DNA of 64,000 nt from Eutypella sp. D-1 (Eukaryota > Ascomycota > Sordariomycetes > Xylariales > Diatrypaceae). The notes beneath the pieces were generated by a model, which did not search any database, was not told where the DNA came from, and saw only the letters and a list, made by a program, of their open reading frames with translations. The DNA is taken from the NCBI GenBank assembly GCA_023313575.1, contig JAJTTP010000010.1, positions 124,001-188,000 on the forward strand, written 5' to 3'. The translations under genes and the position numbers were made by a program. This document shows positions 9,805 to 57,243 of this stretch, piece after piece; within the stretch, counting starts at the first letter, position 1; the number at the start of each line of letters is the position of its first letter.

Positions 9805-9938
9805 CGCCATGTAGAGAAATGGGTAAGTCCTCATCAGACCAGATCTCTTTGTATAAGGGCTTCGTAACTAATAATCAACAACAGTAACTCGTTGACCTCC
9901 TAAGTCAAAGATTGCGGGTTCGAGTCCCGCCATGGTGG
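9805..9938 (+). tRNA. tRNA-Arg(CCU), interrupted in the D-loop
   Basis: Joining 9805-9822 to 9885-9938 gives a complete 72-nt cloverleaf. The acceptor stem CGCCATG/CATGGTG has 7 pairs (one G-U). The D-stem GAG/CTC carries A14, G18G19 and A21. The anticodon arm is TTGAC-CTCCTAA-GTCAA with anticodon CCT at 9899-9901 and T33. The variable loop is 5 nt. The T-arm is GCGGG-TTCGAGT-CCCGC and the discriminator is G. The A-box region (9812-9822) and B box (9917-9927, a perfect GGTTCGANTCC) are intact, and a T5 run follows at 9946. No intron is present at the usual position after nucleotide 37. The interruption lies between G19 and U20. It may be a functional gene with an unusual intron or a pseudogene broken by an insertion. 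Confidence 0.8.
9823..9884 (+). other. Intron-like 62-nt insert in the tRNA D-loop
   Basis: The insert begins GTAAGT, contains CTAAT (fits the fungal branch consensus CTRAY) about 15 nt before its end, and ends ACAG. Length and signals match a Pezizomycotina spliceosomal intron. GTAA occurs at both junctions (9823-9826 and 9884-9887), so a short target duplication is also possible. No terminal inverted repeats are seen. Confidence 0.65.
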
Positions 9939-9945
9939 GTATTTC

Positions 9946-9950
9946 TTTTT
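9946..9950 (+). terminator. Pol III-type T-run terminator
   Basis: Five consecutive T residues begin 8 nt after the discriminator base of the tRNA, and a longer T7 run follows at 9965-9971. This is the standard RNA polymerase III stop signal. Confidence 0.7.
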
Positions 9951-47217: not shown

Positions 47218-49998
47218 CTACACGATCTCCCATCGGGCAAGCCGACCTACAGCTTCACCTGCGTTCCTGACGACGCAGAGCCTGGCGTCGGCCTGACTAC
47301 CCCGATGCCGCAGCTCCTCGGCAGCCACGCGGGCAGCTAGTGCGCCAACAGCGGTGCCGCGCCCATCGCGAAGGCTAAAGGTGCCTGCGGTGACGAAGCC
47401 AATGAGATCCTTCGCGTCGGGGCAGACCGGGTGTTGGCTGCCATCGGTAGGTTCCAGGTCCCCCGAGACCAACTCACGAGCTAGTATGAGCTTACGCGCC
47501 TCGAGGTCTGTCGCTCCCCGATTACGGTTGCGGTTGCGCTGGTGAGATGTTTTCGTTGTGCTCGGTTTCTGGGCTAGCCACTGCGCACGCAGGCCGCGTG
47601 GGAGCTTGCTCTTGTTTACATCGCCATTTTTGGCGCCTACTGCTCCGTGCGGAGAGGGGCCTGTCGCGGTGGCCCCAGCTTGCGTCGCAGCAGCGGTGGT
47701 GGCGGTAACCGTTCCATTATTGTCACAGGAAGGAAGCTTGTATATTCTGGCGCACGTTGTTGGTGTCCCGCGGCCGAGTAGTCTGATGTGGACCGTGACT
47801 AGAGATGTGAGAGGTGGCGGTTCGGATTTGGGACTGAGGTGGGCGTTAAACGCGGATTTTGGGAGGTACGCTAGACTTTCGAGGGGATTTTGAGATGTGG
47901 CTCTTGGTTTTCTCTTCTTGCTCGCCTGGGGACCAGGATCTGCTGCCGCTCCATCCACGTCCATAGCATCGTTATCCACTTGCTTTTCTTGGGTCTCCTC
48001 CACATGGTTGAGTCCGAGGAGTAGCTCCCAGTCGCAATCCCAACCAACGCCGACTTCCCCTTTCCGTCCGGCGCCTAAGTCGAGAGTTTCATAGTTGGTT
48101 CTCTTACCTTTCGGCCTGCGCTCCCATTTCTTCTGCCGAGCCTGTCGCTGGCCCAATTCCCACGCGTTGCCGGCATCAGTACCAGGAAAATCGCCTGGGA
48201 ACCACGGGAGTCCGCGTTCGAACGCAAGCTGTCGTATCTCGTCCACGCCACCGAAGCGAGGGTTTCCACCGCTGGACAGGGGGTAATGCATCAGGCTGTA
48301 CCAAACTGGCAGTACGCACTTCCACGGGAGCATCAGCGTCCAGGTGCCTGGAGCTTGAGAGTTCGTTGGATGGCGCGAGGCAAGCAGTAGAAGAGGGATG
48401 GGCGGGTCAGCTAACGTAGGCTCAAGTCGGGCGCCTGGCACACCCTTGCCTTTCCGGCGGTTCAGCGATTTTTGCGACGGCAGACGAGAACCCTTGAATC
48501 TTGTGTCTCGGTCGAAGAGGTTGAAAGGGGTTGTGGGTAGATTCTGGTGGAAATCCCCAAGAATATTCACGTCGGCCTTCGTGGGCGAGACTTTCTGTGG
48601 TGGATAGTTGAGACGTGGGTCCATTATCGAAAAACCTAGGAGAGTTCCAGGCGGAAGAGACGCGGCATCCCTGCATCCTGTGAGTTGGGAAAATTTGGAA
48701 GCATGTGGGTCCTCTGGATGCGATTTCGTGATGTATGGTTTTAAGATCCCCAATAGAGACTCTGTTGAGTCTGGGCCAGTGATCTCGATACTGCCGATCT
48801 CATGTCTCAAATCCTCGATGTACGCCCTAGGTGTCTGCTTCTTGACGAGTCGGGCCAGTTCATCGAATAGCTCTAGGAAAGCAGAGGGGTGAATGCGGAT
48901 GAAGAGTTGTCTGAAAGTCTTGGAAGATTCAGATCCGTCTATGTTGACTTCCGGGTTCCAGATTATAGTTGCGGGCCCGATGATTTGAGTAGCGCGCTGT
49001 TTCCTCCGACTGAGGGTACAGGTCCAATGCACGGCACCGTGTCTCCAACGACTTGCTTTCTCGTTCCACAAATTTTCCTGTGTTAAACCTAACGCCTTTA
49101 GCACATTCCGCACACTATTGAAGGGTCCAGAAAGCCCGAGAGTGCTCATGTAGCTCATATCCCAGGCTATGGCACCTTTCTCCCACTGCATCCGATGTGT
49201 AGGTCGGTAGCACTTTGCCGTGGGTGTCAAGGGAGTTGCAAACCTCCATAAAGGTTCCTTCGGGTCCGTCATCCTTGCGCGCTTGGTATGCCAAAGGTGA
49301 GTGGGCAGCCACGTTTTTTCGAGCTGGCGTTTTCTGAACTTGGTGGCATTCACCGGGGGCTCGTTCAATGCATTCCTACGAATCTTTGGTCTGGCTGCCC
49401 TCACAGAGATGGTGTCTTTATCAACACCCGCCTTTTCCAGTTTGCGAAGCTTCTTGTTCTTGACCAGGAGACCTAACCTTTTTGCCGTCTCCGCTCGCAA
49501 GCGGCTTCTGGTGGAACTTGATTTCCTAGTCCTGGAATTGACGATTGGAGTCTTGTCCTGAACCATTTCACGCTGGGCTCTCTTCTGCAGCCGCTTGGGA
49601 ACTCTCTTGTAGTTGTGGGCTGCGGCTCTTCGTCTTAGAGTGATGGGCACGCGCTGGAAGGCCCTAGTGGAGTTGGAAACCCTAGTCCGTCGCATACTCT
49701 CATCTAGGGCTTTTAACTCAAAGCCGCGGGCATTGAGGAATGACTGCACGTTAAGCTCGCCATCCTTGAGAGCGGCATCGGACTCCTGCACAGCAATGCT
49801 CCTGATCTCCCGGACCTTCAGCTGATTGGCAGCACGGTTTTCAGTGGGTGTCGCCTTGCCCGTCTTGGGTGCAGAGGCGCCAGCAGAGCCAGCATTATTA
49901 GTCCTAGGCCTTTTGCTAGACGCCGTAGGGAGAGCCTCTTCGGAAGGTCGCTTCTTGTTTGAAGGGCGAGAGGAGAGGTTCTTTGCAGGGGGCGGCAT
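47218..49998 (-). CDS. POP1: RNase P/MRP subunit POP1, 926 aa
   Basis: Single long exon. After a Lys/Ser-rich N-terminus, the POP1 domain carries ALKDGELNVQSFLNARGFEL, MRRTRVSNSTRAFQRVPITL, then RRRAAAHNYKRVPKRLQKRA and KKLRKLEKAG. The central POPLD-type domain includes PLSSGGNPRFGGVDEIRQLA followed by FERGLPWFPGDFPGTDAG. The C-terminal part ends with GFVTAGTFSLRDGRGTAVGA. POP1 is the largest protein of nuclear RNase P (tRNA 5' maturation) and RNase MRP (rRNA processing), binding their catalytic RNAs. A low-complexity Thr/Ala/Gly linker lies before the C-terminal domain. Length is within the fungal range. Confidence 0.92.
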   Translation of the reverse strand: MPPPAKNLSSRPSNKKRPSEEALPTASSKRPRTNNAGSAGASAPKTGKATPTENRAANQLKVREIRSIAVQESDAALKDGELNVQSFLNARGFELKALDESMRRTRVSNSTRAFQRVPITLRRRAAAHNYKRVPKRLQKRAQREMVQDKTPIVNSRTRKSSSTRSRLRAETAKRLGLLVKNKKLRKLEKAGVDKDTISVRAARPKIRRNALNEPPVNATKFRKRQLEKTWLPTHLWHTKRARMTDPKEPLWRFATPLTPTAKCYRPTHRMQWEKGAIAWDMSYMSTLGLSGPFNSVRNVLKALGLTQENLWNEKASRWRHGAVHWTCTLSRRKQRATQIIGPATIIWNPEVNIDGSESSKTFRQLFIRIHPSAFLELFDELARLVKKQTPRAYIEDLRHEIGSIEITGPDSTESLLGILKPYITKSHPEDPHASKFSQLTGCRDAASLPPGTLLGFSIMDPRLNYPPQKVSPTKADVNILGDFHQNLPTTPFNLFDRDTRFKGSRLPSQKSLNRRKGKGVPGARLEPTLADPPIPLLLLASRHPTNSQAPGTWTLMLPWKCVLPVWYSLMHYPLSSGGNPRFGGVDEIRQLAFERGLPWFPGDFPGTDAGNAWELGQRQARQKKWERRPKGKRTNYETLDLGAGRKGEVGVGWDCDWELLLGLNHVEETQEKQVDNDAMDVDGAAADPGPQASKKRKPRATSQNPLESLAYLPKSAFNAHLSPKSEPPPLTSLVTVHIRLLGRGTPTTCARIYKLPSCDNNGTVTATTAAATQAGATATGPSPHGAVGAKNGDVNKSKLPRGLRAQWLAQKPSTTKTSHQRNRNRNRGATDLEARKLILARELVSGDLEPTDGSQHPVCPDAKDLIGFVTAGTFSLRDGRGTAVGALAARVAAEELRHRGSQADARLCVVRNAGEAVGRLARWEIV

Positions 49999-55372: not shown

Positions 55373-57243
55373 CTAAGGCGCCTTGAGGATACCCCTGACG
55401 CCGCCTTGGGCGCCGACCTCCCTCGTCGTGAGGGTGACTGCCAGGTCGCCGGCAATGTTGATCGTGACCTCGACTTTACCGCCCTTCTTCACACCCTTGA
55501 TCGCCGCCTCGGCCAGAGTGTTGCCCATCTTCCACACCTTCTCTCGCAGCTCTTCGGGCTCCTCGTCCGACTCGTCGAAGTCCGAATCGTCGTCATCATC
55601 TTCGTCGGCCCCTTCTTTGTCCCCGTTCTCCTTCGGCTTCGGTTCCGGCTTCGTGACCTTGATGTGGGTGTTTCCCTCAGCGACCCGCACGAGCACATCG
55701 CCACCGTCTTTGGGAGCGGCGACATGAACAGTCCGCCGTGCCGGGACGCCAGTCTCGGGGGCAATGATAGGGGTGAACACCTCGTCGCCATCGTCAGATA
55801 ACGTCACAACACCGATAGCGTTGGTGATGTGCTTGACGGTGCTGACACCGGGGTGCGTTGACTGCTCGATATCGTCGGCCTCGTATTCCTGGATCAGCGA
55901 TGCCTGCAGAGCAGCACCACGGGCCTGTAGCTCCGAGGGGTTGATGGCGGTAGGAGTCGTAGTGGGTGCCAAAATTGCGGTTGACTCGGGGAAGATCACG
56001 CGGAAGTTGTTAGCAATCCTTGGGGTGTGGGAGGTTCCACCAGAGAGTATAACCTCATCAATGTCGAGCACGTCCAGGCCAGCCTTCTTGATAACACCCT
56101 CAACTAACCGGTTGAAGCCCTCGAAGACCTTCCGTGCGATTGTCTCGTACCGCAGCCTGTTTATCGTAGCCTGGTAGTCGATGCCATCGGCCAAACTCTC
56201 AACGCTAAAGCTAGCGTTGTTACCCAGACTGAGAGCCTTCTTGGTAGCCTCGGACTCGGCCTTGAGCTTGGCGAGGCTCCTCTCGTTTTCCCGGGGATCG
56301 ACATTAGGGTTCTTCTTCATGAATTCCTTGGCAAAGTGGTCCATGAGGATCTTATCCAGGTGAACACCATGGAATTCGTAGTCGTGAGCCGTAGCTAATA
56401 TAGTGTAAAGTCCACCTCTCGAAGCAATAACGGCGACGTCGGATCTAGTGCCGCCAAGTTCCGCGACAACGATCATCTTATCCTTAACCTCCTGGCCGGG
56501 TCTCGCATCATAAGCGAGAACCGAGGCAACGGGCTCGTTGACGAGCTGGAGAACCTCGAGCTCTGCGTCGTTGGCGGCCTTAATGAGCGCATCCCGCTGC
56601 TTCTCGGAGAAATTCGTGGGGACGGTCAGGACAGCGGAGGTAACCTTCTTGCCGAGGTAATCGGAGGCAGATTGTATCAGGCGGCGCAGATATCGGCTAG
56701 AGATTTCGGAGACAGAGACTGTAGAGGGGGGCTCTTCGCCCGCCTTATCCTGGATGGTGAAAGAGACAGAGCCGCCTGCATCTTGGGGGTGGGCAGCAGC
56801 ATGGCAGTGGGTAGGATCGATAGACTTGAACCTAGAGTGAAACGTTAGCAAAGAAGGAACAGTAAACCAAAACCAAAACCAAAGGCAGAACAAGTAGAAG
56901 ACATACTCTTGACCAAGGAAATCCTTGAAAGCAGTGACAGTGTTCTTCGCGTTGCGTACTAGGAAGGCCTTGGCTTGGTTTCCTGTGTACTCTTCGCCGT
57001 CGACGTATGACAGGCACGTGGGAATTTGACGATCTGATAGATGAAGCAAGTACAACAAGGTCAGTCGACACAGTTAGGGAAAATAGATCGCTGGGTATGC
57101 AGATAAAGCTCACCTCCATCTTCGTTAGCTATTACGACGGCGCTGTCGTCGACGGTGACGGCGATGGAGCTGTATGAGTTGCCAAAGGCGATGCCGATGA
57201 CAGTGCGCTCGTCCGGCGCCACAACAACCTTTTCTGCCGTCAT
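55373..57243 (-). CDS. SSZ1: Ribosome-associated Hsp70 Ssz1, 571 aa
   Basis: Three exons: 57243-57114, 57033-56907 and 56831-55373. The N-terminal ATPase-like domain has VIGIAFGNSYSSIAV, then LTVPTNFSEKQRDALIKAAN and IVVAELGGTRSDVAVIASRG, and ILSGGTSHTPRI; the weakly conserved phosphate-binding loops and short C-terminus are typical of Ssz1 and not of canonical Hsp70. The tail (FTPIIAPETGVPARRTVHVA, GDLAVTLTTREVGAQGG) is the truncated substrate-binding region. Ssz1 pairs with zuotin in the ribosome-associated complex that assists folding of nascent chains. A Glu/Asp-rich loop (EDDDDDSDFDESDEEPEEL) inserted in the C-terminal domain makes it a little longer than the yeast protein. Divergent from RRP40. 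Confidence 0.9.

Follow-up and report, generated by a model that had tools for sequence, protein, structure and literature searches.

Can a nuclear tRNA gene whose D-loop is split by a piece of DNA with the anatomy of a pre-mRNA intron still supply a working tRNA, and which splicing machinery would then take the insert out? This question is raised by a tRNA-Arg(CCU) gene in the genome of Eutypella sp. D-1. Introns of tRNAs are removed by the tRNA endonuclease; spliceosomal introns belong to transcripts of RNA polymerase (Pol) II, with U6 and U3 as exceptions, and Pol III transcripts are unusual substrates of the spliceosome. The gene lies in a stretch of 64,000 nucleotides, called the window in the following, which covers positions 124001-188000 of contig C2 in the genome assembly (G000; 48.5 Mb in 72 contigs).

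The interrupted tRNA-Arg(CCU) gene in the window

The initial annotation had placed the gene at 9805-9938 and an insert of 62 nt at 9823-9884, and had claimed that removal of the insert restores a 72-nt cloverleaf with every conserved position intact. The coordinates are right. After deletion of the 62 nt, ARAGORN reads a clean 72-nt tRNA-Arg(cct), and it does so in the joined form only; no tRNA was found by this program at the unspliced locus, either without introns or with introns of up to 250 nt. The Rfam tRNA family (RF00005) matches the gene partially, at 9884-9931, with 26.1 bits against a cut-off of 29, and no Rfam match to the gene was obtained at the Rfam cut-offs.

Exon 1 (9805-9822, + strand) provides the 5' strand of the acceptor stem, T8, the 5' strand of the D-stem and the positions from A14 to G19. 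Exon 2 (9885-9938, + strand) continues with T20, A21, the 3' strand of the D-stem, the anticodon arm, the T arm and the 3' strand of the acceptor stem; the anticodon CCT occupies 9899-9901, A37 is at 9902 and the discriminator base is G9938. In the joined tRNA the acceptor stem is made of CGCCATG and CATGGTG, and the D-stem pairs G10-A11-G12 with C23-T24-C25. The anticodon lies in the loop CTCCTAA, the T arm reads GCGGG-TTCGAGT-CCCGC and the discriminator is a G. The cloverleaf is thus clean, but the claim that every conserved position is intact goes too far: position 11 is an A and the pair 13-22 is an A.A mismatch. Position 11 is C or T in 17 of the 17 other nuclear tRNA rows that were aligned (12 distinct sequences), and the pair A11-U24 of the window copy is atypical for an A box as well as for a D-stem.

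The internal promoter elements are both present, as had been proposed. The segment TAGAGAAATGG at 9812-9822 (+), the Pol III A box by its consensus, stands whole before the insert, albeit with an A at position 11 where a pyrimidine is usual in the alignment with the 17 other tRNA rows. The segment GGTTCGAGTCC at 9917-9927 (+), the B box by its consensus, is unbroken. A TTTTT run at 9946-9950 (+), just 3' of the tRNA, resembles a Pol III terminator. A scan for bacterial-type signals gave no promoter-like site at the window gene and one terminator-like match at the end of the tRNA, where shuffled sequences average 0.5.

The insert itself (9823-9884, + strand) has the anatomy of a spliceosomal intron, and all three signals that the initial annotation had listed are present. 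It begins with the 5' splice site GTAAGT (9823-9828), contains the branch-site motif ACTAAT (9867-9872) with the branch adenosine at 9871, followed by 13 nt, and ends with the 3' splice site CAG (9882-9884). The splice junction is ambiguous by one nucleotide, since G9822 equals G9884. These signals match the fungal intron consensus given in PMC5832005, i.e. a GTRWGT donor and an RCTRAY motif 6-36 nt ahead of YAG. In the same source nearly two thirds of the canonical U3 donors fit GTRWGT, and almost all others miss it once (PMC5832005).

Next we analyzed how often such a combination occurs by chance. Among the 127,876 62-mers on both strands of the window, a single one carries the full set of GTRWGT, RCTRAY and YAG, and this is the insert itself. 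Three of 2,000,000 shuffles of the insert have the set, and six of 2,000,000 pass when the donor list is widened by GTTAGT. One of 127,864 68-mers passes as well; it is the intron of an acetyl-CoA transporter gene, which was placed independently by homologous proteins. A run with slightly different motif sets gave one strict and one loose pass among the 127,876 62-mers, and two strict and five loose passes among the 127,864 68-mers. The signals in the insert are beyond chance. The predicted fold of the insert is unremarkable (z -1.06).

The initial annotation also called 62 nt a typical intron length for this genome. The comparison behind this consists of two mRNA introns placed in the window (n=2 controls): the 68-nt intron of the acetyl-CoA transporter gene, placed by homology, and a 75-nt intron (GTATGT...CTAAC...TAG) in an HSP70-like gene, which was inferred from a break in the reading frame and not from homology. 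In its sequence, with a consensus donor, branch motif and acceptor, the insert in the window resembles the ordinary introns of this genome.

Two protein genes of the window may be noted in passing. The HSP70-like frame at 55373-57058 (- strand) seems open through its 75-nt in-frame intron, which could mislead a simple ORF caller. The best named relatives of the POP1-like protein at 47218-49998 are from Monosporascus sp. (70% and 69%) and Diatrype stigma (65%), both genera of the Xylariales; metagenome proteins reach up to 96%.

A second tRNA-Arg(CCU) gene and the probable mode of excision

The genome was searched for CCU anticodon loops with the pattern TCCTA, a gap of 12-42 and GGTTCRANNCC. 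This search resulted in 31 matches (20 for a control pattern), namely the window gene, 29 loci that were read by ARAGORN with introns allowed, and one match, C72:1417674, that was left unread. Two of the 29 loci were called tRNA-Arg(cct): L061 on contig C7 and L080, to which we return below.

The C7 gene (L061:1402-1553, + strand) would carry two introns of differing kinds. The first is an insert of 68 nt in the D-loop (L061:1419-1486, + strand), which starts with GTTAGT, contains GCTAAC with 16 nt after the branch adenosine, and ends with CAG. The second is an ordinary 12-nt intron at position 37/38 (L061:1506-1517, + strand). When both are removed, a tRNA-Arg(cct) cloverleaf remains, with 72 nt up to the discriminator base; ARAGORN's own reading of the gene contains a wrong intron. 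An alternative joint for the D-loop insert, after AATGGTTA and with GTAACC as the start of the insert, offers a less good donor and a worse fit to the D-loop. In ARAGORN's reading of the spliced forms, both CCU genes have the CCU anticodon, T33, A37 and the TTCGA loop. Position 11 of the C7 copy is a C, the B box fits, and both genes are followed by T runs on their 3' side. Pol III transcription would be expected from the surviving A box and B box and from the T runs.

The two D-loop inserts, judged by eye, are alike in their splice signals only. Each starts with GT and ends with AG at the exact joint, and each has an RCTRAY motif within 6-36 nt of YAG (ACTAAT and 13 nt in the window, GCTAAC and 16 nt in C7). 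The window donor GTAAGT fits GTRWGT; the C7 donor GTTAGT is off at one position. None of 2,000,000 shuffles of the C7 insert has the motif set, the donor list of which had been widened to GTTAGT after the C7 donor was seen. With 62 and 68 nt, the D-loop inserts can be set beside the 68 and 75 nt of the two mRNA introns in the window, and the lengths are not in conflict.

The tRNAs encoded by the two genes have diverged considerably. The spliced window form and the C7 tRNA are identical at 53 of 72 positions and differ at 19. Other pairs with the same anticodon are closer to each other in all cases compared: 60/72 for Cys and 66-70/72 for Met, with Arg(tcg), Thr and Val identical. Despite these differences, each of the 20 standard pairs that the window copy forms is a standard pair in C7 as well; 11 are unchanged, 3 have changed on one side and 6 on both sides. 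The D-stem pair 11-24, which spans the insert, belongs to the last group, being A-U in the window and C-G in C7. The A13.A22 mismatch of the window copy is a C-G pair in C7. That pairs were kept by means of two-sided changes argues for selection on the spliced form and against decay, and we regard the pairing pattern as the trace of this selection.

The GT-AG joints lie one nucleotide apart, between G19 and T20 in the window gene and between G18 and G19 in C7; therefore either intron sliding or two separate gains must be assumed. Sliding has been discussed for the introns of U3 as well (PMC5832005). Together, a diverged second gene with a dissimilar insert, like splice signals at nearly the same position and compensatory pairs strengthen the earlier proposal that a Pol III transcript contains an intron of the Pol II style.

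A different way to explain excision is that the inserts are ectopic tRNA introns, cut out by the tRNA splicing endonuclease or by another nuclease and a ligase, and that their GT-AG features are fortuitous. We consider this very improbable. The bulge-helix-bulge in its known arrangement has a central helix of 4 bp. In both genes this helix would have 0-1 of 4 pairs in an ungapped test, whether the cuts are placed at the joint or shifted by -1 or +1. The window copy has a mirror arrangement with 3 of 4 pairs, which would place the cuts one nucleotide to either side, and the upstream of these cuts would give the same product; the same arrangement reaches only 1-2 of 4 pairs in C7. The window insert sits after G19 and not at 37/38, the site of introns removed by the Sen complex, and bulge-helix-bulge pairing in the known arrangement is absent from both genes. 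The unusual position and the central helix with 0-1 of 4 pairs make excision by the endonuclease less likely, and in addition the splice signals of both inserts would have to be products of chance. On the other side, the C7 gene does contain a normal 37/38 intron, and introns in the D-arm and at other non-canonical sites of tRNAs occur in nucleomorphs and red algae (PMC4090602, PMC3978253). Pairing of the bulge-helix-bulge type is also not strictly required of eukaryotic substrates (PMC4090602).

The initial annotation further pointed to a GTAA repeat at both junctions, which would fit the insertion of a small mobile element with a 4-bp target duplication. The repeat is present (9823-9826 and 9884-9887), but the splice-site reading has no need of it and an insertion of this kind, which we regard as scarcely credible, finds no support. 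A search of the 48.5 Mb at E <= 10, which detects copies as long as they are similar, gave no second copy of the insert, whereas a mobile intron or introner-like element should be present several times. The C7 insert is dissimilar and lacks a perfect repeat of 4 bp. Finally, a product with the length and the D-loop of the C7 tRNA is obtained by excision of 62 nt, and not of the 61 nt that a duplication implies.

The search for an uninterrupted CCU gene

Both convincing CCU genes found in the genome are built with an intron-like insert in the D-loop. The question is then whether these genes are in use. They could be dead, each a tRNA gene broken by an intron-like fragment, while AGG is read by wobble of tRNA-Arg(UCU) or by an intact CCU gene that escaped detection. 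Where the D- or T-arm of a eukaryotic tRNA gene contains an insertion, the gene is mostly one among many synonymous copies and is supposed to be a pseudogene (PMC4090602).

The searches for an intact copy covered part of the genome's tRNA genes. Rfam detected at least 61 tRNA matches, from 63 scored of 1,498 candidates. None of the 50 matches that were read has a CCU anticodon. The other 11 are on contigs C37, C38, C39, C48, C51, C53 and C57, five of which are 15-46 kb long, and are taken to be mitochondrial. More generally, tRNA matches recur between contigs C33, C36-C39, C44, C48, C51, C53 and C57, several of which share tRNA clusters; these contigs are probably unmerged pieces of mitochondrial DNA.

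Pattern searches gave a similar picture. The pattern TCCTAA, a gap of 11-17 and GGTTCGANNCC occurs in the genome at the window locus only. With a gap of 43-73, which allows for long 37/38 introns, there were 24 matches (control 25); all 24 were read and none is CCU. A CCU pattern with a normal D-arm had 106 matches, compared with 177 for its control, and in an unsystematic sample of 53 of these 106 no match had at least 3 D-stem pairs together with at least 4 anticodon-stem pairs. When the genome was searched by BLAST, the joined window tRNA and the C7 gene each retrieved only itself and not the other gene. Since BLAST missed each CCU gene from the other, its silence on further copies says little, and the absence of an intact copy is accordingly less secure. 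These searches could have overlooked a CCU gene whose B box is unusual, as well as one that the assembly lacks.

The one candidate for a CCU gene with a normal D-loop is L080 on contig C45, which ARAGORN labels tRNA-Arg(cct) by means of an intron ahead of position 33. The locus consists of two similar tRNA-like units, read by the program as Arg(cct) (1462-1568) and Gln(ctg) (2009-2117), with oddly placed introns and, in a canonical reading, no clear T33. In our judgement L080 is probably a tRNA-like repeat, because an intron ahead of position 33 has to be assumed for the Arg(cct) reading and because a near twin in the locus is called Gln. Part of the L080 sequence also occurs in the match at C72:1417674. 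Leaving the doubtful L080 aside, these searches, which covered part of the genome's tRNA genes, gave no convincing CCU gene whose D-loop is uninterrupted. The intact gene elsewhere that, according to the initial annotation, would mark the window copy as a pseudogene if no RNA reads crossed its spliced junction did not appear in convincing form at the loci searched, although ARAGORN does call L080 CCU.

A gene for Arg(UCU) is present; its D-loop is normal, and its anticodon loop contains a 34-nt intron. Its product may read AGG by wobble, and cells might therefore live without a CCU tRNA. AGG accounts for 39 of 246 Arg codons in six ORFs of the window, so that a CCU tRNA is to be expected. The existence of the Arg(UCU) gene, the odd A11-U24 pair of the window copy, the partial nature of the CCU search and the CCU call at L080 all leave some room for dead genes. 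Yet both convincing CCU genes carry the insert and none was found without it; all standard pairs are kept in spite of 19 differences in 72 positions, six of them by double changes, which decay would not produce; and full splice signals stand exactly where their use restores the cloverleaf. We thus regard it as unlikely that the genes are dead, although this is the strongest of the alternatives to working genes with an excised intron.

Further tRNAs with an intron in the D-loop were looked for with patterns in which GGTTCRANNCC lies 76-106 nt behind GTAAGT, GTATGT or GTGAGT. The matches numbered 6 (control 8) for the first donor, 15 (control 6) for the second and 7 (control 5) for the third, and a light check by eye, with 80 nt viewed, revealed among them no other tRNA split like the window gene. 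Prokaryote genomes, searched with two patterns, and viral contigs, searched with three, contained no match, as was expected of them.

Some other tRNA-like loci deserve mention. In a repeated tRNA-like element on several contigs (L060, L063, L069, L074, L075 and L083), a GGTTCRAATCC box is preceded by TCCTATGGGAAAA, which in L060 is replaced by TCCTATAGGAAAA; four of these six loci are recognized by ARAGORN, which gives them an odd anticodon of four bases. The element looks like a family of tRNA-derived SINEs or retroposons. On contig C6, ARAGORN reads a tRNA-Thr(agt) with a 71-nt anticodon-loop intron at L091:1437-1579, and two identical tRNA-Thr(agt) genes (C6:942187-942258 and 942844-942915) are separated by about 600 bp and lie on opposite strands.

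A probable spliceosomal intron in a tRNA gene and its possible consequences

Taken together, the region 9805-9938 is probably a working nuclear tRNA-Arg(CCU) gene with a genuine U2-type GT-AG spliceosomal intron in its D-loop. Removal by the spliceosome is what we infer from a reading that makes use of every signal present. In the proposed sequence of events, Pol III would transcribe the window gene from its internal A and B boxes and stop at the T run. U1 would pair with GUAAGU, and the adenosine of ACUAAU would carry out the attack. The spliceosome would then join G19 to U20, by which the D-stem and the D-loop are closed. From the C7 transcript the tRNA endonuclease would, judging by the position, also take out the 12-nt intron at 37/38. 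The product, by its anticodon, should read AGG codons.

There are parallels to this arrangement in other small RNAs. The U6 snRNA gene of S. pombe contains an mRNA-type intron (PMC8917221), and U6 of S. pombe and other fungi resembles the present case in having such an intron in a Pol III RNA. It differs in that U6 is an RNA of the spliceosome itself, whereas the present host is a tRNA, with promoter boxes inside the gene and an intron pathway of its own. According to a 2017 article, no small structured RNAs apart from U3 and U6 were known at that time to be frequently split by introns (PMC5832005). The introns of fungal U3, likewise a small structured RNA, are normal GT-AG introns with clustered positions for which sliding has been discussed (PMC5832005); in contrast to the present genes, U3 is a snoRNA and has no split in a cloverleaf loop.

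Among tRNA introns, the canonical eukaryotic ones, which are located at 37/38 and removed by the Sen complex, are also found in nuclear tRNA genes, and the 12-nt intron of C7 is one of them. The CCU inserts differ from these in their location in the D-loop, in their GT-RCTRAY-AG signals and in the absence of a bulge-helix-bulge in the known arrangement. The ectopic introns of C. merolae and of nucleomorphs share with the CCU inserts a place outside 37/38, including the D arm, and sometimes several occur in one gene. Those of G. theta are 3-24 nt long and those of C. merolae depend on a bulge-helix-bulge, a dependence for which the ungapped test of the known arrangement gave no sign in the CCU genes; in the excerpts of the papers concerned they are not described as spliceosomal.

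None of the literature matches listed, which include few subscription journals, reports a GT-AG intron in the D-loop of a tRNA in its title or the start of its abstract. To our knowledge, no spliceosomal intron in a tRNA was known before. For small RNAs made by Pol III, a spliceosomal intron has its precedent in U6; the tRNA as a host is apparently new.

If the proposed reading is true, it has several consequences. Programs that admit a single intron, placed in the anticodon loop, can overlook or misinterpret genuine tRNA genes of eukaryotes; this is indicated by the fact that ARAGORN missed the window gene and assigned a wrong intron to C7. The spliceosome would be able to act on a tRNA precursor, and a tRNA D-loop completed by the spliceosome would break the division between the two splicing systems. 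In the case of C7, a single short RNA would have to be processed by both systems. We lean, with some reserve, towards the wider view that all nuclear tRNA-Arg(CCU) of this organism depends on the spliceosome, with C7 needing the tRNA endonuclease in addition. The decoding of AGG by its own tRNA would then be tied to the capacity of the cell for pre-mRNA splicing.
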